Under the pieces are notes generated by a model. It was not told where the DNA came from and ran no database searches. It saw only the letters and a list, made by a program, of their open reading frames with translations. A stretch of DNA of 11,271 nt, from NCBI GenBank assembly GCA_002712565.1, contig PAUA01000048.1, positions 5,589 through 16,859 of the forward strand, written 5' to 3'. The stretch is from Gemmatimonadota bacterium. Its GTDB lineage: Bacteria; Gemmatimonadota; Gemmatimonadetes; Longimicrobiales; UBA6960. The translations under genes and the position numbers were made by a program. Positions 1 through 10,279 of this stretch are shown one piece after another. How positions within the stretch are numbered: the stretch's first letter is position 1; the number at the start of each line of letters is the position of its first letter.

Positions 1-128
1 TGGGGTAGCGGATTGGTCGCCATTCCTATTGATCTAAGCCCGGCATGAGACAGCGCATGAAGGAGGTTGATCCCGACGAATCCCGTTGCACCTGTAACGA
101 GTACCGCGGGTTCTGTCTCAGAGGGCAC
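1..128 (-). CDS. NAD(P)-binding epimerase/SDR family protein, N-terminal part only
   Basis: The reading frame starts at a GTG (128-126) and is open to the left edge, so only the first 42 residues are visible. They contain a Rossmann beta-alpha-beta start: a hydrophobic strand (AVLVTG) followed by GATGFVG at residues 13-19, the GxxGxxG dinucleotide-binding motif of extended short-chain dehydrogenases and NAD-dependent epimerases/dehydratases. A GAGGTGG ribosome binding site lies just upstream, inside the end of the neighbouring flavoprotein gene. The start overlaps that gene's last 11 bases in another frame, so the two are very likely one translationally coupled operon. Substrate and exact subfamily cannot be told, because the catalytic YxxxK region lies outside the window. 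The fold call is fairly safe; the reaction is unknown. Confidence 0.75.
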   Translation of the reverse strand, partial: MPSETEPAVLVTGATGFVGINLLHALSHAGLRSIGMATNPLP

Positions 129-2109
129 GGCCCACCTCGTGGCCGTCGTAAACGGCCTCAAGTGCTGATCGCGGTGCGAGACAGTCGCCGACAAGGGTTA
201 CCCCGATTCCACTGACAGCGATACGTTCATATTGGTCGGTCCTTGCCGCCGGGTTACCTGCCGCAATCACGGCGTCAACCGTGATGCACTCGGTTTTCCC
301 GGTGGAGAGGTCTTCCACTGTGAACTCGTTGCCAATGAAACTGAGACCGGCACGAAGTACGCGTATACCCACTCCTGCTTCGCGTAGACGTGAGGTGATG
401 GCGGTTTTGCTGTAGCGGGTGATCTTCCAGGCGTAGCCGGCGACTGGTGTCAAATAAGTGACGTCCGCGCCAAGATCGGCGATGTGTTCGACCACACTGA
501 TTGATGACCAGTCGCCCAAGAGGTCATAAAAGGCAACCTTGATTCCACCGGTCCAATCTGCGCTCAGTGCTTCACCCAGCGTTAGTCCAACACCACCTTG
601 CGGGAATTCCACAGGCTGCAATTCAGAACCTGTGGCGATCACGATGTGATCAGGTTGTTTCTCGTGTTCAATCGCCACAGTGGCATCAAATTTGGCACTG
701 GTTCGGATCGTTACCCCGTGTCGTTCGCAGGCTGCAATCTGCTGATCGATCATGGTCAGGAAGTCGTTTCTCTTTGGCATATGACGTAGCCAACTCAGCT
801 GACCGCCCAACTGGGGTTCCATCTCAAAGAGTTCGACGTCGTGCCCGCGAGCCGCAGCGACCCAAGCTGCTTCCATCCCTGCTGGTCCGCCACCTACGAC
901 CACGACTCGCTTAGCTGCTTTAGCGGGGTCCTCTATTGGTTCGGTAGGTCGGAATCGTTCCTTACCAACTGTGGGGTTGACGACGCACGTAATTGGCAGC
1001 CCCTTCTCTAGGAAGCCTGCACACCCTTGATTGCAGCCGATACAGGTGCGCACCTCATCCGTTCGTCCCTCGTATGTCTTGTGGACTACTGCGGGGTCGG
1101 CGATATGGGCTCTTGCCATACCGACGAGATCGACCGCACCGACACTGAGCAACTCTTCGGCCTCGTCGATTGAGCGGAATTTGCATACGGCCATTACCGG
1201 AAGGCCCTGTCCGGCAGCTCGCAGACTCTTCCGGATTCGTGGCGCGAGGTGGCGAAAGCTGTTTGGGTCAAAGGACATGTCCGCCATCTGGGTCGAGAGG
1301 GAATAGGTGCCGTGATACGCAGAATGTGAGACATTGACGAAGTCGACCGGAACACTTGCCGTAATGGCGGGGACTATGCGACACATGTCTTCAAGCGTGA
1401 GGCCACCTTGGGCGAATTCGTCAGCGCTGATCCGTATACCCATGCATGTGTCTGCCCCGATCTCTTCACGAACTGCGGCCAGGACCTGAAGTGGAAATCG
1501 CATTCGATTTGGTTCTTCACCACCGAACTCGTCGGAGCGGTGGTTAGTCGCTGGCGACAAGAATTGGTTCAGCAGGTGGCCGTGGCCCAGGTGGACCTCT
1601 AGACCGTCGAATCCAGCCTCAAGAACGTTGCGGGCACTTGTTGTGTGCCCACCGATGACCGCCTCAATATCGTCGAGATTCATAACGTGCGGAGCAGTTG
1701 CTGCAGCATCCCAAGCAATAGCTGAAGGTCCCCAAGACGGCAATCGCAACGCGTCACCGTCAATCTGTCGTCCAAGGTGAATAATTTGGCCGAAGATTCG
1801 TGTTCCATGAGACTGAACGGCGTTGGCAACTAATCGGAGTGGTTCGATACAGCGCGGGTCATAAGCCGCAAGCCCCTGAGGCTTTCCGAGACTGGTCTCA
1901 TGAACCCGGAGCGATTCCATAATGATGAGACCGGCACCACCCCGTGCTCTGGCCTCGTGGTAGGCAACGTGGGTATCGGTTGGCATGTGACCTAGTCCGA
2001 AGTTGGTCGTGTGCGCTGGCACAAAGATCCGGTTGCGGAGCTGGGTATTCCCGATGTGAACGGGATCGAAGGCAGAGAACGATTCGGGGTTCAGCGTTCT
2101 GACCGACAT
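118..2109 (-). CDS. TMADH/FadH-type iron-sulfur flavoprotein (OYE-family NADH:flavin oxidoreductase)
   Basis: This 663-residue protein has the full architecture of the trimethylamine dehydrogenase / 2,4-dienoyl-CoA reductase group. An N-terminal FMN-binding TIM barrel of the old yellow enzyme class occupies about residues 10-345. It is followed by a [4Fe-4S] cysteine set (C356, C359, C363, C375; CxxCxxxC then C after 11 residues). The C-terminal half holds a pyridine-nucleotide/FAD module with GGGPAG at 406-411. Such enzymes pass electrons between a nucleotide, FAD, the cluster and FMN. They either reduce activated C=C bonds or oxidatively demethylate amines. At the position where FadH carries its active-site tyrosine (HGY), this protein reads H176-G-H178, so genuine dienoyl-CoA reduction is doubtful. 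The ATG at 2109 follows closely after an in-frame stop, and no strong ribosome site is visible. The gene is coupled to the downstream epimerase and diverges from the ABC transporter. Family is sure, substrate unknown. Confidence 0.9.
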   Translation of the reverse strand: MSVRTLNPESFSAFDPVHIGNTQLRNRIFVPAHTTNFGLGHMPTDTHVAYHEARARGGAGLIIMESLRVHETSLGKPQGLAAYDPRCIEPLRLVANAVQSHGTRIFGQIIHLGRQIDGDALRLPSWGPSAIAWDAAATAPHVMNLDDIEAVIGGHTTSARNVLEAGFDGLEVHLGHGHLLNQFLSPATNHRSDEFGGEEPNRMRFPLQVLAAVREEIGADTCMGIRISADEFAQGGLTLEDMCRIVPAITASVPVDFVNVSHSAYHGTYSLSTQMADMSFDPNSFRHLAPRIRKSLRAAGQGLPVMAVCKFRSIDEAEELLSVGAVDLVGMARAHIADPAVVHKTYEGRTDEVRTCIGCNQGCAGFLEKGLPITCVVNPTVGKERFRPTEPIEDPAKAAKRVVVVGGGPAGMEAAWVAAARGHDVELFEMEPQLGGQLSWLRHMPKRNDFLTMIDQQIAACERHGVTIRTSAKFDATVAIEHEKQPDHIVIATGSELQPVEFPQGGVGLTLGEALSADWTGGIKVAFYDLLGDWSSISVVEHIADLGADVTYLTPVAGYAWKITRYSKTAITSRLREAGVGIRVLRAGLSFIGNEFTVEDLSTGKTECITVDAVIAAGNPAARTDQYERIAVSGIGVTLVGDCLAPRSALEAVYDGHEVGRAL
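132..138 (-). promoter_or_regulatory. Ribosome binding site of the truncated epimerase gene
   Basis: The minus strand reads GAGGTGG here, with its GAGGT core 5 nt ahead of the GTG at 128. It lies inside the coding region of the preceding flavoprotein gene and supports the GTG start. Confidence 0.55.
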
Positions 2110-2361
2110 CAGAGTCGAAGCCTATGTTCCCTCGCTTGTGCCGAAACTGCTGAAGGCTGCATCCGACGCAAGTGTGAATGGGCCTCTATGGCAGTCTTTA
2201 GTCAAATCCACAGCGAGCAACACGATCTACAAGAAGCACTTCACGGTCAGTAAATCAGACATGATGAGACCAATAGCTACAGATTGCCAGGGAGTGATGG
2301 AACAGCTGCTCTTGAGTTCGGTTCACCCGGTTCCGACTGCACATGGCGACAGGTTGAGTTA
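2110..2361. other. Divergent intergenic region with a doubtful small ORF
   Basis: These 252 bases separate the minus-strand flavoprotein from the plus-strand permease and must carry promoters for both directions. I could not pick a convincing -35/-10 pair. A plus-strand frame from a GTG at 2138 encodes 74 residues and ends with TAA at 2360-2362, sharing a base with the permease ATG (TAATG), as in translational coupling. The peptide is not recognisable and has no good ribosome site, so it is not called as a gene. The expected solute-binding protein gene of the transporter is not here. Confidence 0.5.
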
Positions 2362-3018
2362 ATGAGTAGTTGGGATTGGTCAATTATCCAACGATGTTGG
2401 CCGCTGATGAGAGATGCAGCCTGGGTGTCAATCAACCTGTTTGCATGGTCTCTCGTTCTGGCCACAGGATTGGGACTCGTTCTTGCCCTCATGAGAATGT
2501 CGAGTTTCCGGGCCCTCAGATGGCTATCCGCACTATATGTTCTCGTCTTTCGTGGATTGCCTGCGTTAGTCATTCTCTTTTTCGCCTATTTCTGGGTTGG
2601 TCGAAATCTGAATCTTTCACCATTTCAGTCTGGTGTTATTGGGCTCTCAGTGGCTGCTGGCGCATACAAGGCAGAAATTATTCGTGCGGGATTGCTTGCA
2701 GTGGGGCGAGGCCAGTACGAGGCGTCAGAAGCCTTGGGGCTGTCTAAGTCGCATTCATTGCGAAGAATTATTATTCCTCAGGGCATTCGAGTCATGATTC
2801 CCAACTATATGAGCAATGCGACGTTGTTATTAAAATCAACTTCTCTAGCATCCGTAATTGGGATTACTGAACTTACGGGACGAGCACGCCAGTTGGCAAA
2901 CTCGACCTACAAGCCAATTGAGATTCTTACAGCAGCTGGTGTTATCTATCTGGCTCTAACCACTGTGTTGACTGTGTCGCAAGAGATATTGGAACGACGC
3001 TTCAGGTTAAAGACGTGA
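2362..3018 (+). CDS. Amino-acid-type ABC transporter permease 1 (HisM/GlnP family)
   Basis: This 218-residue inner-membrane protein is one half of the channel of a polar amino acid uptake (PAAT) ABC importer. It has several hydrophobic segments (about residues 22-44, 57-78, 88-104 and 190-207). The cytoplasmic EAA loop, which docks on the ATPase, begins with EASEALG at 120-126 and continues to IIIPQGIR and IPNY. The frame is open upstream to a TTG at 2284, but the ATG at 2362 is preferred. It gives exactly the length of the paralogous permease next door, follows a weak AGG, and overlaps an upstream stop as TAATG. G+C is low (37-42% in sampled lines) compared with the catabolic genes. Substrate cannot be read from the sequence; this family carries amino acids, betaines and similar small charged compounds. 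Confidence 0.9.
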   Translation: MSSWDWSIIQRCWPLMRDAAWVSINLFAWSLVLATGLGLVLALMRMSSFRALRWLSALYVLVFRGLPALVILFFAYFWVGRNLNLSPFQSGVIGLSVAAGAYKAEIIRAGLLAVGRGQYEASEALGLSKSHSLRRIIIPQGIRVMIPNYMSNATLLLKSTSLASVIGITELTGRARQLANSTYKPIEILTAAGVIYLALTTVLTVSQEILERRFRLKT

Positions 3019-3031
3019 GGCGGCAGTATCC

Positions 3032-3688
3032 ATGAGCATTGAGCTCATCCAAGAATATGTGCCAGTAATCCTTAGAGGATTCTGGATAACAGTACGGTTG
3101 TTCCTATGGTCTCTTGTATTCTCAACGGTAATCGGCCTGGCCCTTGCTCTGATGCGCATATCGCCTGTGGCGGTCTTGCGCTGGATATCAGGAGGGATCG
3201 GTTGGCTGTTCCGGGGAATACCGCTGCTGCTAATTCTGTTCTATGCATTCTTTGCTTTGCCGGAAATCCACCAATCATTAATGTTTGACCCCTTCTGGGC
3301 TGCTGTAGTGGGTCTGTCAATCTGGACGGCGGCTTACCAAAGTGAAGCTATACGTTCGGGGATCATCGCAGTTGAAAAAGGTCAAATTGAAGCTTCTGAA
3401 GCGTTGGGAATGACAAAACGGTATTACATGCGCAGGATAGTTATTCCGCAAAGTATTCGTATCATGATTCCACCATTTATTGGAAATGCTATTAATACTA
3501 TGAAGCAAACCTCTCTTGCCGCGGTAATTACTGTTCCCGAAATGACTCTGTTGGCTCGTCAGATCATCAGTGAAGACTTTAAGGTTGCGGAACCACTCCT
3601 CACCTTGGCGTTTATTTACCTGGCTCTCACCACGCTGCTCCTAATGGCCCAACAGGGCCTCGAACGGATCTTCCGACTAAAGGTATGA
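3032..3688 (+). CDS. Amino-acid-type ABC transporter permease 2 (HisQ/GlnP family)
   Basis: A second 218-residue permease starts 13 nt after the first gene, with GAGG upstream. It is clearly a paralogue of permease 1: same length, same hydrophobic profile, and an almost matching EAA loop (EASEALG at 120-126, then IVIPQSIR and IMIPP). The two presumably form a heterodimeric transmembrane channel, as HisQ and HisM do. A single nucleotide separates its stop from the ATG of the ATPase gene, so the three genes form one translation-linked unit. Nothing appears truncated. Its codon use is also A+T-rich (one sampled line at 42% G+C). Confidence 0.9.
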
Positions 3689-3689
3689 C

Positions 3690-4481
3690 ATGACATCACT
3701 AGTGAGTGTGAAGGGCCTTAAGAAATCATTTGGTGGTCTTGAAATTCTTAAGGGAATGGACCTAGAGGTGCGACGTGGAGAGGTCTTGTCAATTATCGGC
3801 CCCTCGGGATCAGGAAAAACTACAATCCTACGTTGTCTCAACCTTTTGGAACGTCCCACCGGTGGTCAAATCGATGTTGATGGCCAGAACCTATGTAAAG
3901 AACTCCCAGATGGGAAGATGGAGTACGCGAGTAGGAATAAACTGCGTGAGATTCGGAAAGGAATTGGTCTGGTTTTTCAACAATTTAACCTTTTCCCTCA
4001 TATGACGGCGTTAGAAAATATCATTGAAGCCCCGATGGCGGTTAATGGTGTGGATCGGTCCACGGCGATAGGGGCTGCTCGGGACTTGTTGGAATCAGTG
4101 GGTCTAGCTCAATGGGCGGATCACTATCCACTTCAGATGTCCGGAGGCCAGCAGCAGCGTGTTGCTATTGCACGGGCCCTGGCGATGGAACCAGCAGTCA
4201 TGCTCTTCGACGAGGTGACTTCCGCTGTTGATCCAGAGCTGGTGGGAGAGATCCTGCTTGTGATGCGTCACCTGGCTGAGCAGGGTATGACCATGTTGGT
4301 TGTTACTCACGAGATGAACTTTGCGGCAGACGTTTCAGATCGGGTCCTCTTTATGGACAACGGTGTTGTAGTGGAGGAAGGGCCAGCGGCGCAGGTCCTA
4401 GGCGCTCCACAGAACGCTCGGACTCGGGGATTTCTCCGAGCAGTGAGAGACCGTGCGCCTATGGATGAAGAACAGCAGTAG
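3690..4481 (+). CDS. Amino-acid-type ABC transporter ATPase (GlnQ/HisP family)
   Basis: This 263-residue cytoplasmic subunit hydrolyses ATP to drive the two permeases. All required motifs are intact: Walker A GPSGSGKT at 37-44, Q-loop Q97 in VFQQFN, the ABC signature SGGQQQ at 151-156, Walker B MLFDE at 171-175 with catalytic E175, and the switch histidine H207 in VVTHEMN. The pattern LFDExTSAxDPE and the roughly 250-residue length are typical of polar amino acid importers. One small variation is [10 protein letters not shown], where LFDEPTSALD is commoner. AAAGGT lies 5 nt before the ATG. This is the last gene of the transporter block; 202 non-coding bases follow before the catabolic cluster. 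Confidence 0.93.
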
Positions 4482-4683: not shown

Positions 4684-5952
4684 ATGGGTATGACAGTGGC
4701 GGAGAAGATCATTGCTCGCGCTGCCCACAGAGACAGGGTCCAGCCAGACGAGATCCTCTGGGTAGACGTTGATCTGGCGATGATGCACGACTCCAGTGGT
4801 CCAAGGCGGATCTGGCCAGCGCTGGAAAGACTTGAGATGGGCGTATGGGATCCAGACCGAGTTGTTCTGGTCTGCGATCACTATGTGCCCGCCAACACCG
4901 TTGCTGCTGCCGAGATCCTCCAGACCACGAGAAGGTTTGCCAACGCATTCGGGATTACGCGATTCCACGAAGCGGATGGCATTGCCCACACCCTGATGGT
5001 TGAGAAGGGTTATGCCCAGCCAGGGATGATGTACCTGGGATCTGACTCCCATACGTGCACAGCGGGAGTCATGGGCTGCCTCGCTCTTGGAGTGGGCTCG
5101 ACCGACATGCTGGGAATCATCACTACCGGCCAAACATGGCTTCGGGTGCCACATTCGATCCGGGTACAGGTCGACGGTGAACTCTCAACCGGAGTGACGG
5201 CTAAGGACCTCATTCTCACCATCATTGGTGACAAAGGTATGGATGGCGGTTTATACCGGGTACTTGAGTTTGGAGGTTCCGGAATTGATGCCATGAGCGT
5301 GCAGGAACGGAGCGTCCTGACCAACATGTGTGCCGAAATTGGTGCAAAGACGGGGATCGTTCCTTCTGACCGTATAACTGTGAAGCATCTTGCTTCTCTT
5401 GGTATCGATGCAGATGAGAGCCCCACTAGCGAGTCTGATGCGGTCTATGAACAGGTATGGAACTACAACGCGACCGATGTTGAGCCGGTTGTCGCCCGAC
5501 CAAATCGTCATGACGACGTCATTCCGATTTCTTCGCTCGATGCGCCTGCGGTAACCCGTGCCTACATCGGGTCGTGTACAGGCGCGAAGTATGAAGACCT
5601 TGCAATGGCTGCTGAGGTGTTGCGGGGCCGACATGTCGCCGAGACGGTCTTGTTGCAGATAGCTCCAGCTTCAAGAGAGGCGCTTCAGCAGGCCATGGAC
5701 GATGGAACAGCCCAAGCGCTCATGGAAGCAGGCGCCCACTTCCTGTCGACCGGTTGTGGTGCCTGTCCAGGCATCGGAGCAGGCATTTTGGCCGCTGGTG
5801 AAGTGTCGATTTCGACGACCAATAGGAACTTTCGAGGTCGAATGGGAAGTCCCGAATCGAGTCTGTATCTAGGTTCGCCCTACTCCGTTGCTGCAGCGGC
5901 AGTTGTCGGGAAGATCATTGACGCTCGAGAACTGATTGGGGATTCGCCGTGA
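4684..5952 (+). CDS. Aconitase-family hydro-lyase, large subunit (LeuC / dimethylmaleate hydratase-like)
   Basis: This 422-residue protein is the large subunit of a two-subunit [4Fe-4S] hydro-lyase of the LeuC/HacA/DmdA branch. Visible marks are the MGMTVAEK start typical of the branch, DHYVPA at 65-70, DSHTCTAG at 121-128, and the cluster ligands C298 (in GSCTG), C358 and C361 (GCGAC). The enzyme adds or removes water across a C=C of a dicarboxylate. In leucine biosynthesis LeuC reads SCTNGR where this protein has SCTGAK, so the substrate is probably not isopropylmalate. No other leucine genes are present. The next genes are its small subunit and an isocitrate lyase-superfamily enzyme, the pairing known from dimethylmaleate hydratase and dimethylmalate lyase in nicotinate fermentation. 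The likely substrate is therefore a substituted maleate (inference). The gene overlaps the next by 4 nt. Confidence 0.88.
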   Translation: MGMTVAEKIIARAAHRDRVQPDEILWVDVDLAMMHDSSGPRRIWPALERLEMGVWDPDRVVLVCDHYVPANTVAAAEILQTTRRFANAFGITRFHEADGIAHTLMVEKGYAQPGMMYLGSDSHTCTAGVMGCLALGVGSTDMLGIITTGQTWLRVPHSIRVQVDGELSTGVTAKDLILTIIGDKGMDGGLYRVLEFGGSGIDAMSVQERSVLTNMCAEIGAKTGIVPSDRITVKHLASLGIDADESPTSESDAVYEQVWNYNATDVEPVVARPNRHDDVIPISSLDAPAVTRAYIGSCTGAKYEDLAMAAEVLRGRHVAETVLLQIAPASREALQQAMDDGTAQALMEAGAHFLSTGCGACPGIGAGILAAGEVSISTTNRNFRGRMGSPESSLYLGSPYSVAAAAVVGKIIDARELIGDSP

Positions 5953-6458
5953 TCGAAAATGCTCAGATTGCAGGTCGCGTCTGGGCCTTCGGTGACAACG
6001 TAGACACTGATGCCATCGTTCCTGGTAAGTACCTTGTCCATGACCTTCCTGAGATAGCAAAGCATGTGATGGAAGGAATCCGGCCGGGTCTTGCACCACA
6101 GATACAAAGAGGCGACATCATTGTTGGTGGCAAGAACTTTGGCACGGGTTCGAGTCGCGAGATGGCGCCGCGCGGACTTCAGGCTGCAGGAGTTAGTGCG
6201 GTAATCGCTGAGTCCTTTGCACGCATCTTTTTTCGTAACTGCATCAACGTCGGGCTTGCCCCAGTTGAATGTGCTGATTCAGGTCTCATCGAAGAAGGAC
6301 AGCAAGTCGCGATTGATCTCGTGACTGGCATTGTCACCATTGTGGATACGGGCCAGCAGCTAGAAGCAGTGCCGCTTCCTCAGGAAGTTGGCGAAATCCT
6401 TACGGCAGGAGGAATGGAGAACTATCTGGCAGCAAAGTTCACCGGAGCCCACTCATGA
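5949..6458 (+). CDS. Aconitase-family hydro-lyase, small subunit (LeuD / dimethylmaleate hydratase-like)
   Basis: This 169-residue swivel-domain subunit completes the active site of the preceding large subunit. The N-terminus FGDNVDTDAIVPGKY (14-28) and NFGTGSSRE at 63-71 are the family hallmarks; the serine and arginine of SSRE bind substrate carboxylates in aconitases. The loop YLVH at 28-31, which sets substrate choice in LeuD/HacB proteins, and the following SREMAP (LeuD commonly has SREHA) differ from classic leucine enzymes. The GTG start at 5949 overlaps the large-subunit TGA (GTGA), and GGGGA lies 6 nt upstream. The stop overlaps the lyase ATG (ATGA). These overlaps imply coupled, near-stoichiometric expression of hydratase and lyase. 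Length is normal for a stand-alone small subunit. Confidence 0.88.
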   Translation: MIENAQIAGRVWAFGDNVDTDAIVPGKYLVHDLPEIAKHVMEGIRPGLAPQIQRGDIIVGGKNFGTGSSREMAPRGLQAAGVSAVIAESFARIFFRNCINVGLAPVECADSGLIEEGQQVAIDLVTGIVTIVDTGQQLEAVPLPQEVGEILTAGGMENYLAAKFTGAHS

Positions 6459-7354
6459 TGTCCCCGGCGTCTCAACTCCGACTTCTTCTTGACAACAATT
6501 CTCCCGTCGTCGCTCCCGGTGCTTTTAACGCACTATTCGCCAAGCTGATCGAGGAGGCCGATTTCAAGGCCGTGTACTTGAGTGGGGCAGGGGTAGCGAA
6601 CTCGCTGCTGGGCGCACCCGACCTTGGAATGGTCACCCAGACTGAGATTGCAAACATTGCTGATCTCGTCTGTCAGGCGGTCGACATACCGGTCATAGCC
6701 GACGGCGACACGGGATATGGCGGAGTCCACAACGTCGCTCGCACGATTCGTCTGTACGAACGAGCCGGTGTGGCTGCCATTCAACTTGAAGACCAGGCGT
6801 TTCCGAAGAAGTGCGGTCACTTCGAGGACAAAGTAGTGGTGTCTGTAGAAGAGATGGTGCAGAGAATCCAGGCTGCTCGGGACGCTCGCAGCGACGACGA
6901 AGGCATTCTCATAATTGCTCGCACAGATGCCCGGGCATCCCTGGGGCTCAATGCGGCCATCGATCGAGCGAAAATCTATGCAGAGGCAGGAGCTGATCTT
7001 CTATTTGTCGAAGCGCCGCACAGTGAAGAAGAATTGGCCCAGATCGGTTCCGAACTATCCGGTCATCGGCTGATGGCCAACATGGTCGAGTTCGGCAAGA
7101 CCCCGCTGCTGTCGGCAGACCGTTTGGCCGAGCTCGGCTATTGCTTGATCATCCACCCTGGTGCGATCACCAGGGCAGTCGTGGAACTCACACGAGCAGT
7201 CCTAGGAGATCTCCGCACTACTGGATCAACAAAGGGTTGGCTCGACCGCATGGCAACATTCGCAGACGTCAACGCCCTGCTTGGCCTTCCGGAGGCGAAC
7301 GAATGGGAAGTCGAGATATCTAGGCGCGCCGCAGAGGTCGGTGACAGTGAGTAA
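6455..7354 (+). CDS. Isocitrate lyase/PEP mutase-superfamily C-C lyase (dimethylmalate or methylisocitrate lyase-like)
   Basis: This 299-residue (beta/alpha)8 enzyme is of the ICL/PEPM superfamily. The N-terminal PGAFNAL and the strand YLSGAGVANS (41-50) are typical. DGDTGYG at 83-89 supplies Mg-binding aspartates. KKCGH at 118-122 carries the catalytic cysteine C120, which marks true lyases (isocitrate, methylisocitrate and dimethylmalate lyases) and argues against a mutase or phosphonopyruvate hydrolase. Such lyases split a 2-hydroxy-dicarboxylate to a 2-oxoacid plus a carboxylate. Placed directly after a LeuCD-like hydratase, and without a citrate-type synthase, 2,3-dimethylmalate or a similar alkylmalate is the most economical substrate (inference); products would be pyruvate (or 2-oxobutyrate) and a short acid. 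GGAG lies 7 nt before the ATG. A second ATG at 6458 is also possible. Confidence 0.88.
   Translation: MMSPASQLRLLLDNNSPVVAPGAFNALFAKLIEEADFKAVYLSGAGVANSLLGAPDLGMVTQTEIANIADLVCQAVDIPVIADGDTGYGGVHNVARTIRLYERAGVAAIQLEDQAFPKKCGHFEDKVVVSVEEMVQRIQAARDARSDDEGILIIARTDARASLGLNAAIDRAKIYAEAGADLLFVEAPHSEEELAQIGSELSGHRLMANMVEFGKTPLLSADRLAELGYCLIIHPGAITRAVVELTRAVLGDLRTTGSTKGWLDRMATFADVNALLGLPEANEWEVEISRRAAEVGDSE
7334..7338 (+). promoter_or_regulatory. Ribosome binding site deciding the start of the EthD-like gene
   Basis: GAGGT inside the end of the lyase gene stands 8 nt before the GTG at 7347 but only 2 nt before the GTG at 7341, so 7347 is the better start. Confidence 0.5.
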
Positions 7355-7736
7355 CCACCCGAAAGTCAAGGCAATTCTTGGTTACGACATCTCTGAAGGA
7401 ATCGACACCTCCGATTACGAATATTGGCTCGCTGAAGTGCACTTCCCAGACCTCTTGTCGAACCCATTCCTGGATCGAATCGTCACCAACGACATCATCC
7501 GACCTGTCACCGTCAGTAGCGCAGGCTCACCGACGATGGAGAAGCCAGCGACGTTTTATCGGATTGTCGAACTTCACTTCGCCGACCACGAGGCCTACGA
7601 CCACTACCTCCAGTGGTTTGTGGAACACCCACTTGATCCTGAGCGCGGGCCCGCCGGTCGGACAGCCTTTCGTTTCTATGTTCTTACAGACAGTGCCATC
7701 GCAGATCACGACCATCCTTACCAGCCGGCCGTCTAG
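7347..7736 (+). CDS. Small EthD-like / dimeric alpha-beta barrel protein
   Basis: This 129-residue soluble protein has no signal peptide or membrane segment. Its pattern suggests a ferredoxin-like dimeric barrel. A first strand (KAILGY) is followed by a helix with W and H (YEYWLAEVHFPDLL, 24-37), then a second half with FYRIVELHF (70-78) and RFYVLT (109-114). The motif of aromatic residues, H, P and L after the first strand resembles EthD proteins, small partners of catabolic operons whose role is mostly unclear. It starts at GTG inside the last bases of the lyase gene and lies 12 nt before the amidohydrolase gene, so it belongs to the pathway. It could be an isomerase/lyase-like barrel enzyme or an accessory protein. 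The fold call is moderate; the reaction is unknown. Confidence 0.6.
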   Translation: MSNHPKVKAILGYDISEGIDTSDYEYWLAEVHFPDLLSNPFLDRIVTNDIIRPVTVSSAGSPTMEKPATFYRIVELHFADHEAYDHYLQWFVEHPLDPERGPAGRTAFRFYVLTDSAIADHDHPYQPAV

Positions 7737-7748
7737 CAGGAGAGACCC

Positions 7749-8423
7749 ATGGAGTCTTCTGATCTAACCCCTCGTCAGTACTACGAGCAGATTAAGGCCA
7801 ACCCAAACCGAGCTCGGTTCGGATTCGGCTGCAAAGCCGCGGTCGTCAACATCGACATCCAGAACGCATATACCCAGGTAGGGGAGTTCGCTACGGCGTA
7901 TGAGACCCACCCCAACCAACTGGGCTTCGTCAACGAAATCGTTGGCGCAACGAGAGAGCGCGGCTGGCCAGTGGTGTGGACTTACGTCGCCTACATGGAG
8001 TCGGGGGAGGACTGCGGGATTTGGGGTACCCGAACCGACACCGAAAATTCGCTTCAGAACATCAAGCGCGGTTCACGCCGTGCCGAACTCGACGAGCGAC
8101 TCGATGTTGATCGAATCGTTGACATCATCTACGAGAAGAAGATGCCGTCTCCATTCTTCGAGACACCGTTACAGAGCCTCCTCGTATGGCACCAAGTAGA
8201 CACGGTCATCCTGACCGGAGGTTCGACCTCCGGATGCGTTAGAGCTGCTGCAATCGACAGCTTGTCTCGGGGATATCGAACGATCGTTCCCGAAGAGTGC
8301 GTGGCCGACAAACACGAGATTCCCCACTTCTCGAACCTGTGCGACCTTGTTTTGAAATACGCCGACGTGGTGCCAGTCGCTGAGGTACTTGAATACTTGG
8401 AAACCGGTAGAGGCGATGCCTGA
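7749..8423 (+). CDS. Isochorismatase-fold amidohydrolase (N-carbamoylsarcosine amidase / maleamate amidohydrolase-like)
   Basis: This 224-residue cysteine hydrolase has the full catalytic triad of the family: D36 (VVNIDIQNAY), K130 (in YEKKMPSPF) and nucleophile C163 in GGSTSGCVRA. The STSGCVR form with the preceding non-proline cis bond is characteristic of N-carbamoylsarcosine amidase and maleamate amidohydrolase (NicF type), which release ammonia from a small amide via a thioester. In this operon, between an unsaturated-diacid hydratase and two imidase-like proteins, it best fits a half-amidase that turns a maleamate-type product into the diacid (inference). AGGAGAG lies ahead of the ATG. 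The final ATGCCTGA overlaps the start of the next gene. Alternatives are a ureido-acid hydrolase or a nicotinamidase-like enzyme. Confidence 0.87.
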   Translation: MESSDLTPRQYYEQIKANPNRARFGFGCKAAVVNIDIQNAYTQVGEFATAYETHPNQLGFVNEIVGATRERGWPVVWTYVAYMESGEDCGIWGTRTDTENSLQNIKRGSRRAELDERLDVDRIVDIIYEKKMPSPFFETPLQSLLVWHQVDTVILTGGSTSGCVRAAAIDSLSRGYRTIVPEECVADKHEIPHFSNLCDLVLKYADVVPVAEVLEYLETGRGDA

Positions 8424-9354
8424 GCCTCGAACACCGTTTTCGGACTCCGCCGACCCAGGGTTGTACGACTACTGGCCATGGGAGGGGCGTCCAAAACTCA
8501 CTTGGCCCAACGGCGCCAGGGTGGCCTTCTGGGTTGCTCCCAACATTGAGTTCTACGAACTTCAGCCTCAACCCAACCCCAAGCGAAGTGCCTGGAACCG
8601 TCCCGAACCAGACGTTCTCCACTACTCAATCCGGGATTACGGCAACCGGGTAGGCACGATGCGAATGATGGAGGTCATGGACCGCTATGGCGTTCGTGGC
8701 AGCGTGTCGCTAAACGTGGCGGTCTGCGAACACCATCCAGAACTAATCGAGGCTTGCGTCGGCCGTGACTGGGAGATCTTTTCCCACGGCATCTACAACA
8801 CCCGTTACAGCTACGGAATGGATGAAGCCCAGGAGCGCGCAATTCTTGAGGACTCGCTCGAAACTATTGAACGCCATACAGGTCAGCGCCTAGCCGGCTA
8901 CCTCGCTCCAGCGCTCACACACACAGAACGAACGATGGACCTACTTGCTGAATACGGCGTTCTCTATACCTGCGACCTGTTTTGCGACGATCAACCTCAA
9001 CCAGTGAACGTGCGCGATGGACGGTTGATTTCGATCCCGTACTCGCTCGAAATGAACGACATCATCGTTTACAACTCCTACCAGGAGCCTCCGAGACGTT
9101 ACGCCGAGATGTTAAAGGCCAACTTCGACCAGCTTTACGAGGATGGCGCCGAGAACGGAACGGTCATGTGTATCCCGCTGCATCCCTACGCAGTAAGCCG
9201 TCCCCACCGAATCAGCGCTTTCGAGGAGGCGTTGGAATACATCACAAGCCATGACGAGGTCTGGGTTACAACCGGCCGAGAAATCGCTGAATATTTCTAC
9301 GACCATCACTATGACAAAGCAGTGACCTCAATCGCGACAGCGAACGGGAGGTAA
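8416..9354 (+). CDS. PuuE/cyclic-imidase-like hydrolase (polysaccharide deacetylase fold), paralogue 1
   Basis: This 312-residue protein is of the NodB-homology fold and of the branch containing PuuE allantoinase and a Pseudomonas cyclic imide hydrolase, not sugar deacetylases. It opens with the branch's WPNGARVAFWV (30-40). It carries RDYGNRVG at 73-80, SHG at 123-125 with H124, YLAPAL at 162-167, and H246 in PLHP shortly before the PHRI segment. No secretion signal is seen, so it acts in the cytoplasm. PuuE-type enzymes hydrolyse a C-N bond in a cyclic ureide or imide. With the amidase upstream this suggests ring opening of a cyclic imide or similar ring (inference). The ATG at 8416 overlaps the amidase stop (ATGCCTGA); an in-frame TTG at 8389 is less likely. 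Confidence 0.82.
   Translation: MPEPRTPFSDSADPGLYDYWPWEGRPKLTWPNGARVAFWVAPNIEFYELQPQPNPKRSAWNRPEPDVLHYSIRDYGNRVGTMRMMEVMDRYGVRGSVSLNVAVCEHHPELIEACVGRDWEIFSHGIYNTRYSYGMDEAQERAILEDSLETIERHTGQRLAGYLAPALTHTERTMDLLAEYGVLYTCDLFCDDQPQPVNVRDGRLISIPYSLEMNDIIVYNSYQEPPRRYAEMLKANFDQLYEDGAENGTVMCIPLHPYAVSRPHRISAFEEALEYITSHDEVWVTTGREIAEYFYDHHYDKAVTSIATANGR
9346..9351 (+). promoter_or_regulatory. Ribosome binding site of imidase-like paralogue 2
   Basis: GGGAGG stands 7 nt ahead of the GTG at 9359. It supports this rare start over the later in-frame ATG at 9380. Confidence 0.65.
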
Positions 9355-9358
9355 GGCC

Positions 9359-10279
9359 GTGGCTCTGCCTAACTCGTATATGGAGTACCCGAACCGGCGC
9401 TATGGCATGGACCATCAGTGGTACGAGTGGTCAATACTGCAAGACCGGCCAGAGATCTCCTGGCCGCACAATGCACGGGTAGCGATATGGGTAAATGTTG
9501 CTCTCGAATTCTTCCCCCTCAACCAGTCACCTGAGCCGTTTAAGGCACCAGGCGGAATGGTCACTACCTACCCCGATCTCCGTCATTACACATTGCGAGA
9601 TTATGGAAACAGAGTTGGAGTGTTCCGTGTATTCAGATTGCTCGACGAATTAGGAATTACACCAACAGTTAGTTTCAACTCGAAGGTCGCTGAGCGTTAC
9701 CCAAGACTTATGACCGAAGTTGTACAACGCGATTGGGAAGTCATAGCTAACGGAATTGATATGGGAACGATTCACCACGGTGGTCTTGCGGAAGATACAG
9801 AAGCAGCCCTGATCGATGAGTCTTTGACCAGCCTGCGAGAACTCTCTGGCCAGCCTGTGACTGGTTGGCTTTCTCCAGCTCGCTCCGAGTCAATGAACAC
9901 TCTCGATCTTCTAGCCGCGCGCGGTGTGGAATACGTGGGTGACTGGCAGAACGACGAAATGCCTTATGCCATAAGCACTCCTGCTGGCCGACTTCATTCG
10001 ATGCCGATGAGCCACGAGTTGGATGATCAGACCATTCAGTTGCAATACCAACAGTCAGAGACTTCCTTCGCGGAACAAGTAGAGGACGCCATGACCGTTG
10101 TCTATGACGAAAGCAGTGAGAGCAACGGAAGAATGGTTTCGCTGGTGATACATCCCTGGATGTCGGGTCAGCCTCATCGGATTTGGGCGCTTAGACGGGC
10201 GCTTACGAAGGTAATGGGTTACAACGATGTCTGGAGTGCCTCTGGCTCTCAGATCCTCAAGGCGTTTCAGGCCGGGTAG
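9359..10279 (+). CDS. PuuE/cyclic-imidase-like protein, paralogue 2 with altered active site
   Basis: This 306-residue protein is a tandem paralogue of the preceding gene. Shared marks are WPHNARVAIWV (35-45), RDYGNRVG at 80-87, RDWEV at 124-128, WLSPA in the middle, and IHP with H245 followed by PHRI near the end. The SHG motif of paralogue 1 is ANG here (residues 130-132), so the histidine expected in the active site is missing. That suggests a different substrate, another mechanism, or a structural partner in a hetero-oligomer. The gene begins 4 nt after paralogue 1 behind a strong ribosome site, so both are made together. Its middle part is more A+T-rich (about 40-47% G+C in sampled lines) than paralogue 1 (about 58-62%). 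The family call is good; activity is uncertain. Confidence 0.8.
   Translation: MALPNSYMEYPNRRYGMDHQWYEWSILQDRPEISWPHNARVAIWVNVALEFFPLNQSPEPFKAPGGMVTTYPDLRHYTLRDYGNRVGVFRVFRLLDELGITPTVSFNSKVAERYPRLMTEVVQRDWEVIANGIDMGTIHHGGLAEDTEAALIDESLTSLRELSGQPVTGWLSPARSESMNTLDLLAARGVEYVGDWQNDEMPYAISTPAGRLHSMPMSHELDDQTIQLQYQQSETSFAEQVEDAMTVVYDESSESNGRMVSLVIHPWMSGQPHRIWALRRALTKVMGYNDVWSASGSQILKAFQAG

Follow-up and report, generated by a model that had tools for sequence, protein, structure and literature searches.

Which compound is broken down by a block of seven packed genes in a Gemmatimonadota bacterium, and do these genes belong to a single route? The block occupies positions 4684-10279 of an 11,271-nucleotide stretch of contig PAUA01000048.1 (assembly GCA_002712565.1, positions 5,589 to 16,859), the whole of which is hereafter called the window. 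An earlier note on this DNA, made from its letters alone, proposed that the seven genes supply every step from a cyclic imide to central metabolism: ring opening by two PuuE-like imidases, hydrolysis of the half-amide, hydration of the resulting unsaturated diacid, and cleavage of the hydroxy-diacid. Comparative genomics supports the joined imidase-to-lyase route as a conserved unit, with three corrections: the second PuuE-like protein does not look like an imidase, one small gene has no assigned step, and the imide is not read from the ring-opener itself. We consider it reasonably probable that the operon is catabolic and acts on a small cyclic imide, most likely an alkylmaleimide, whose four-carbon backbone is unsaturated.

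All seven genes lie on the plus strand and overlap or nearly touch each other, and the coordinates and residues given earlier were reproduced throughout by open reading frame (ORF) calls, Pfam and NCBIfam searches, and alignments. In order, they encode a LeuC-like large subunit of the short type (P0001, 4684-5952, PF00330, starting at ATG 4684 or, alternatively, at TTG 4675), a LeuD-like small subunit (P0002, 5949-6458, PF00694), a lyase of the ICL/PEP-mutase superfamily with a KKCGH motif (P0003, 6455-7354, PF13714), a small orphan (P0004, approximately 7347-7736), an isochorismatase-fold amidase with D36, K130, C163 and the motif SGCVR (P0005, 7749-8423, PF00857), and two PF01522 proteins, PuuE-like A (P0006, 8416-9354) and PuuE-like B (P0007, 9359-10279). 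In the proposed route, an ATP-binding cassette (ABC) transporter would import the imide, PuuE-like A, with B as its partner, would hydrolyse one C-N bond to give a half-amide, and the isochorismatase-fold cysteine amidase would release ammonia, leaving an (alkyl)maleate. The LeuC/LeuD-type Fe-S enzyme would then add water to form an (alkyl)malate, which the ICL-superfamily lyase would split, with a short fatty acid released alongside pyruvate or 2-oxobutyrate as the 2-oxoacid. We infer all of these substrates, the order of the steps, the transport of the imide, and the role of B. The substrate of a LeuC/LeuD-type enzyme has to be a cis-unsaturated or hydroxy diacid, and that of an ICL-type lyase a malate-type acid; an alkylmaleimide fits all steps without a further enzyme, whereas succinimide-type saturated imides would not need the hydratase. 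Since the ring-opener and the amidase would remove the only nitrogen of the imide, no transaminase or ammonia-lyase is needed.

The expectation that the block is conserved outside its source genome held, with 80 loci and the same gene order in distant phyla. Relatives of PuuE-like A were searched in one genome per species with an alignment of 17 sequences, at least 585 were confirmed among at least 592 pattern matches, and the best 80 of the confirmed ones define the loci. A gene was called present if its best blastp match to a window or reference protein reached at least 90 bits within the fetched stretch, which extends up to 10 kb on either side. The nearest loci (L006-L008) belong to Acidimicrobiales metagenome-assembled genomes (MAGs), in which PuuE-like A is 83-87% identical to that of the window. 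The amidase was found in 75 of the 80 loci (L017, L033, and three Caulobacter loci lack it) and PuuE-like B in 74 (missing in the Bacteroidota L025, L046, L049, and L062, and at contig ends in L033 and L044). The ICL-type lyase is present in 41, LeuC in a short (19 loci) or long type (10 loci), LeuD in 29, a GntR regulator in 20, a CoA-transferase in 13, a flavocytochrome-c/TcuA-like flavoprotein in 10, and HMGL in 9. The long LeuC of L049, a locus without the lyase, groups with a leucine-operon row in the LeuC tree and is probably an ordinary leucine gene. This recurrence is far beyond chance: from the 0.43 lyase homologues per Mb found outside the blocks of 16 block genomes, about 0.6 (0.61) of the 80 loci would be expected to carry a lyase, and the 41 observed exceed this about 67-fold. 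Moreover, all 19 loci with the short LeuC also contain the lyase, against 22 of the remaining 61 (Fisher P = 2e-7).

What we regard as the strongest evidence for the route, with roles judged by family, is the swapping of its parts between loci. Families, catalytic residues, conservation, and co-location are directly observed, and so are the swaps. As ring-opener, loci carry either the PuuE-like pair or HyuA/HyuB, or else a dihydropyrimidinase-like enzyme; the hydratase is a short LeuCD, a long LeuCD, or PrpD-like; the cleavage genes are of the ICL type, a CoA-transferase with HMGL, or a CoA-transferase with a CitE-like protein. In Paraburkholderia (L150), a GntR regulator and a branched-chain-type ABC transporter are accompanied by LeuC, LeuD, HyuB, HyuA, an isochorismatase-fold gene, and a lyase, and Variovorax (L162) has LeuC, LeuD, HyuB, HyuA, an isochorismatase-fold gene (64% identical to that of L150), a flavoprotein, and a lyase. 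The amidases of these two form a subgroup different from that of the window (33% over 78 residues in L162), and the LeuC of L150 is sister to that of the PuuE-bearing Burkholderia plantarii L002 (support 99/86), with L162 next (100/99). Two Acidimicrobiia loci, L180 and L181, resemble the window in the transporter (56-71% identity), isochorismatase-fold protein (43-44%), LeuC (71% and 67%), LeuD (62% and 59%), and lyase (63% and 62%), with the PuuE-like pair replaced by a protein whose best match, below the cut-off, is a dihydropyrimidinase/D-hydantoinase model; a match to PuuE-like A at 1e-70 was obtained in 7 of 296 genomes of the class, and these two are not among them. Haloferax (L156) combines the same kind of amidohydrolase with CoA-transferase, HMGL, LeuC, and LeuD, next to a gene annotated as isochorismatase family, for which the tail alone was scanned and gave no Pfam match. 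The stretch fetched from Acidiphilium (L086) contains CoA-transferase, HMGL, amidase, the PuuE-like pair, LeuC, LeuD, and a flavoprotein, without an ICL gene. Both ICL-type and CoA-transferase/HMGL cleavage genes, plus an acyl-CoA synthetase, are found in Sphingobium (L087) and Sphingomonas (L005), and in Acidimicrobiia L182 the PuuE-like pair and the amidase are joined, where hydratase and lyase would stand, by MmgE/PrpD, an HpcH/HpaI (CitE-like) lyase, and a CoA-transferase. By family, each of these sets would fit the sequence of ring opening, deamidation, hydration, and cleavage.

Automatic annotation names the LeuC/LeuD-like genes 3-isopropylmalate dehydratase, and ordinary annotation of the parts would make the block one of leucine or methylcitrate genes beside a purine-type allantoinase. 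P0001 reaches NCBIfam model NF001614 (489 bits, cut-off 385) and stays below the leucine equivalog cut-offs (LEU2, 381.7 versus 610.65 bits; leuC, 221.4 versus 560.25), while P0002 exceeds that of TIGR02087, the LeuD/DmdB family (175 bits, cut-off 108.95). The ORF list of the window contains no leuA, leuB, or prpC. In 16 genomes picked for carrying the block, the only close LeuC (46-82% identity) adjoins LeuD and the lyase in all 16, and a separate E. coli-type LeuC is located elsewhere in 13 (none was found in G001, G003, and G004, which are perhaps incomplete). The LeuC tree (62 rows, with 5 leucine-operon rows included and two long rows left out) shows a clade (100/97) of 24 rows, consisting of 21 PuuE-linked short rows, 2 Hyu-linked rows, and 1 with only LeuCD and ICL, whose sister is a Peribacillus LeuC accompanied by CoA-transferase and HMGL. 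Neither the short leucine-operon LeuC of Monoglobus and Acetoanaerobium nor any E. coli-type row falls within this clade, so that the hydratase does not group with leucine LeuC, a grouping that would have told against the earlier note; the PuuE-linked long LeuC rows are scattered over several groups. Cut-offs, genome copy number, and the LeuC and lyase trees thus led us to reject leucine or methylcitrate genes, an explanation that is largely refuted and to which we give next to no chance. An exclusive clade of the 21 PuuE-linked short rows was also rejected (P = 5e-56), because the Hyu-linked and LeuCD-ICL-only rows nest among them, a placement that is informative in its own right. The pair has the three-cysteine LeuC/LeuD-type heterodimer organisation of dimethylmaleate hydratase DmdA/DmdB, with the Fe-S cysteines C301, C361, and C364 (P0001 numbering from TTG 4675) kept in at least 95% of 21 rows, and we propose that it is the hydratase of an unsaturated diacid. 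On a plasmid of Peribacillus sp. R9-11 (L163), CoA-transferase, LeuC, LeuD, and HMGL genes adjoin those for luciferase-like (LLM) monooxygenases, flavin reductase, riboflavin kinase, and DHBP synthase, a cluster that may act in the breakdown of riboflavin-derived methylated diacids.

For P0003, a 2-alkylmalate-type carbon-carbon lyase is proposed on the basis of family and residues. Its KKCGH motif spans residues 118-122, and K118, C120, G121, and H122, as well as the superfamily residues D56, E112, C120, and R156, are kept in at least 95% of 45 rows. Roles for Asp58, Glu115, and a catalytic Cys of methylisocitrate lyase (MICL) are described in the accessible part of PMC7609661; the MICL numbers were matched to P0003 by eye from alignments. 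P0003 falls below the cut-off of the PrpB model (306.7 versus 354.4 bits), and its PDB matches are a Bacillus structure of another name (209.4 bits, the best), 1zlp (207.9), the MICL structure 9hra (194.8), and 3fa3 (172.8). As for a grouping with methylcitrate enzymes, which would have told against the earlier note, the lyase tree (64 rows) gathers the three prpC-linked PrpB rows in a clade of their own (100/99); the lyase clade of the window has no firm place in this tree. Proteobacterial blocks, whether the LeuC nearby is short, long, or absent, supply most of the 36 lyase rows of a single clade (100/100), and L054, L070, L071, and L073 form a distinct one. The products of the ICL branch, a free acid and a 2-oxoacid, would need activation, a need that fits the genes for acyl-CoA synthetase, acyl-CoA dehydrogenase, and 2-oxoacid:ferredoxin oxidoreductase adjoining some blocks. 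Two block genomes (G007 and G011) have an extra lyase outside the block (L130 and L137) with an isochorismatase-fold gene (32-33%) and a CoA-transferase (31-34%), possibly a related module.

PuuE-like A is modeled with a PuuE-like fold (predicted local distance difference test [pLDDT] 81.6; best PDB matches 1z7a and 3cl6), scores 114 bits against PuuE and 51 against HpPgdA, and in the fold search is 27-28% identical to the former and 22% to the latter. It therefore does not fall on the side of HpPgdA, by which alone, as a stand-in, the cyclic imide hydrolase (CIH)/HxnM branch of PF01522 is represented here. Because A lies nearer the allantoinase PuuE than HpPgdA, the imide is derived from the downstream enzymes and not from A. 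Neither A (127.4 bits) nor B (100.1) reaches the cut-off of the allantoinase model TIGR03212 (424.6). Two histidines common to PuuE and A (P0006 H125 and H257) are invariant in 89 of 89 A proteins; at the same positions, B proteins have histidine in 51 and 48 of 83, and the B of the window has N and then H. As the PuuE-type histidines are not consistently kept in B, it is probably a partner or regulatory subunit of A rather than another enzyme. Of the two imidases claimed earlier, both PF01522 genes are present, and the second, having lost one of the two shared histidines, is not supported as an imidase. We propose A as the ring-opening cyclic imide hydrolase and P0005 as the half-amide hydrolase. 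The latter has the fold, the D-K-C residues, and the GCVR of a maleamate-type half-amidase, with D36, K130, and C163 kept in at least 95% of 84 rows; it reaches no NCBIfam equivalog cut-off and scores only 77-107 bits against solved relatives.

The same two proteins invite a different substrate, as A could open a five-membered hydantoin and P0005 act as an N-carbamoyl amidohydrolase, with the freed amino acid being converted to a diacid that enters LeuCD and the lyase. PuuE is the best characterised relative of A and N-carbamoylsarcosine amidohydrolase the top solved relative of P0005 (107 bits), the top model matches of the swapped ring-openers, below cut-off, are to hydantoinase/dihydropyrimidinase and caprolactamase, and aminotransferases are found in the L054 locus. 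However, the leftover amino nitrogen would require a transaminase or an ammonia-lyase, neither of which was seen in the window, and nothing would explain why a hydratase and a lyase adjoin the amidase. We therefore rate the hydantoin route as rather unlikely.

Several observations weigh against the alkylmaleimide route. The closest characterised relative of PuuE-like A is an allantoinase, and the ring-opener families also have hydantoins, dihydropyrimidines, or lactams as substrates. Hydratase and cleavage genes are both lacking nearby in 32 of the 80 loci, and a lyase without hydratase is present in 14 of the 80 (some loci are cut by contig ends). Among 18 genomes searched out of those 32, only 6 have a close (47-50%) short LeuC elsewhere; in the 4 of these that were fetched, it adjoins LeuD and the lyase. 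Lyase-bearing loci of the L054 type instead carry a glutamine-synthetase-like gene and aminotransferases and probably act on another substrate. The four Acidimicrobiales lyase rows, the clade of the window, hold together (100/100) and are weakly placed (33/83). Finally, the LeuD substrate loop is YLVH/YLVY in Acidimicrobiales and mostly Y-M/F/L-K elsewhere, and thus substrates may differ between clades; the rule that we take to connect YLRT/YLVx loops to substrates did not fix the substrate, as the loops vary between clades. As a separate observation, the amidase and PuuE-like pair of L054, L061, L071, and L073 adjoin genes clustering with the glutamine-synthetase-like and aminotransferase genes of L054.

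Another reading would separate the ring-opening triad from the hydratase-lyase trio as pathways of their own, with a common neighbourhood or transporter. The triad without the trio in those 32 loci is consistent with this, as is the trio without PuuE-like genes in the stretches fetched from Ancylobacter (L152), Roseomonas (L159), and Cupriavidus (L161), and its position apart from the triad, adjoining a UbiD-family gene, in all four gammaproteobacterial genomes fetched (L186-L189). The gene overlaps of the window, a gene order that recurs in distant phyla, and the exchange of ring-openers with the other parts kept point instead to joint selection, which makes two pathways improbable. The LeuC-LeuD-lyase genes of L186-L189 lie behind the UbiD-family gene, and those of L187 are followed by genes for phosphoenolpyruvate (PEP) mutase and phosphonopyruvate decarboxylase.

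A six-membered or carboxylated imide, such as a glutaconimide or a citrazinate-type ring from pyridine breakdown, would yield upon ring opening and deamidation an aconitate-like acid, on which LeuCD would act as a hydratase or isomerase ahead of cleavage. The lysine in the LeuD loop of most short-type blocks of proteobacteria might hold an additional carboxylate, HxnM opens a six-membered imide in fungal nicotinate breakdown according to the accessible part of PMC9304392, and a flavocytochrome-c/TcuA-like flavoprotein accompanies the 10 loci mentioned above. Yet the LeuD of the window has valine at the lysine position (YLVH), ordinary aconitase should serve aconitate itself, and the CitE-like and HMGL variants appear to fit citramalate-type acids better, so we hold such a substrate to be quite unlikely. 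The flavoprotein was discarded as proof of tricarballylate chemistry, since three relatives scanned score below the TcuA cut-off.

Of the seven genes that the earlier note took to supply the steps, P0004 has no assigned one. This protein has no Pfam or NCBIfam match, its model is a dimeric alpha/beta-barrel (EthD-like) fold of low confidence (pLDDT 63), and 180 relatives were obtained by protein search, the named ones among the 120 listed being from Acidimicrobiia (three) and Actinomycetia (one). In L181 (2525-6321, opposite the block), genes for a CoA-transferase, a PF04199 cyclase-family protein, MmgE/PrpD, and, adjoining the latter, a P0004 relative (56%) run in one direction, which is the sole hint of possible partners of P0004.

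Around the block, the window has genes that the earlier note did not include, with an ABC transporter upstream and a TauD-family gene downstream, all on the plus strand. The transporter (2284-4481) consists of two permeases (2284-3018 and 3032-3688, PF00528 twice) and an ATPase (3690-4481, PF00005), and is probably the uptake system of the route; its assignment to the amino-acid type is our own reading. The same three genes are 5' of the block in L007 and L008 and, with a different ring-opener, in L180 and L181. No solute-binding protein gene adjoins the permeases at 2110-2283, next to which a divergent gene lies; L180 has, beside the permeases, a gene for a lipoprotein-like protein of 319 aa. 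This divergent gene (118-2109, minus strand) encodes an old yellow enzyme (OYE)/BaiCD-like flavoenzyme (best NCBIfam model 558 bits, cut-off 793), below the cut-offs of both the bilirubin-reductase and BaiCD models. It was not seen in L006-L008, whose stretches extend only a short distance upstream, and its membership in the route is not demonstrated. The TauD/TfdA-family dioxygenase gene (P0008, 10286-11271, open at the window end, identified by Pfam/NCBIfam match) is also located 3' of PuuE-like B in L006-L008. A promoter and terminator scan gave fewer matches than the mean of shuffles. The same position, 3' of PuuE-like B, is occupied in L013, L015, L016, L017, L027, L032, L035, and L039 by arrays of 3-6 similar proteins of about 300-350 aa (e.g., L027:11841-17296), from aquatic alphaproteobacterial MAGs and one Marinimicrobia MAG. 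Several have a Tat-like signal, RidA-like and enoyl-CoA-hydratase-like genes stand alongside in several loci, and the one member scanned had no Pfam match and is VOC-like by eye only.

Where alkylmaleimides might come from leads to the boldest reading, which is not a result. The yearly synthesis and breakdown of chlorophyll are on the order of 10^12 kg, and the petal death protein reportedly prefers a 2-ethyl-3-methylmalate. Maleimides derived from tetrapyrroles (methylmaleimide, ethylmethylmaleimide, hematinic acid) could have in this operon family the sink that is missing for them in the environment, with a route put together repeatedly around a single amidase fold and with ring-openers, hydratases, and lyases of unrelated families. 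We put forward this link to chlorophyll and heme decay as tenable but doubtful. Ethylmethylmaleimide would be converted to 2-ethyl-3-methylmaleate and 2-ethyl-3-methylmalate, and then to pyruvate and butyrate or to 2-oxobutyrate and propionate. PMC7318184 cites senescent leaves and lake sediments as places where maleimides and hematinic acid occur, and itself detected hematinic acid but no maleimides in sweet potato leaves; by its title, PMC4738332 reports 2,3-dimethylmaleic anhydride from a plant. Beyond this question, a widespread gene set with a clear order of steps would make the microbial use of maleimide-type rings testable, would help to rename many genes annotated as '3-isopropylmalate dehydratase' or 'polysaccharide deacetylase', and offers a clear-cut example of a single pathway scheme built anew from other enzyme families.

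Among known systems, the nicotinate fermentation of Eubacterium barkeri ends with dimethylmaleate hydratase DmdA/DmdB and dimethylmalate lyase. It shares with the window a LeuC/LeuD-type hydratase (P0002 is in the LeuD/DmdB family; DmdAB was compared by description) and an ICL-superfamily lyase, a pair that in the window would likewise work on an alkylmaleate, and differs in that the window has a ring-opener and a half-amidase, with no enamidase, mutase, or methylitaconate isomerase seen in it. Cyclic imide metabolism in Blastobacter and Pseudomonas follows the same logic of imidase plus half-amidase and is not known to include a hydratase and a lyase dedicated to it. Maleamate amidase (NicF/Ami) and N-carbamoylsarcosine amidohydrolase have the fold, D-K-C, and GCVR of P0005, which is distant from the solved ones by the scores given above; we take 4l07/4l08 and 3uao to be maleamate amidases. 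The petal death protein and the fungal dimethylmalate lyase (1zlp and 3fa3) belong to the superfamily of P0003, for which 1zlp is the second best solved relative, but are eukaryotic. In the fungal HxnM/HxnN system, as presented in the accessible part of PMC9304392, an HpPgdA/PuuE-like cyclic imidase is likewise followed by an amide hydrolase; its imide is six-membered and saturated, it ends in hydroxyglutarate with no hydratase or C-C lyase mentioned there, and HxnM is likened to HpPgdA, whereas P0006 is nearer PuuE. A search of the open-licence PubMed Central (PMC) literature found no description of a route joining imidase, half-amidase, hydratase, and lyase, and no account of the microbial consumption of maleimide-type rings. 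Given that HxnM/HxnN already joins an imidase with an amidase, and the E. barkeri route a hydratase with a lyase, the joining of all four is a new combination of known reaction types, one that search found described nowhere, and it comes with unusual modularity.

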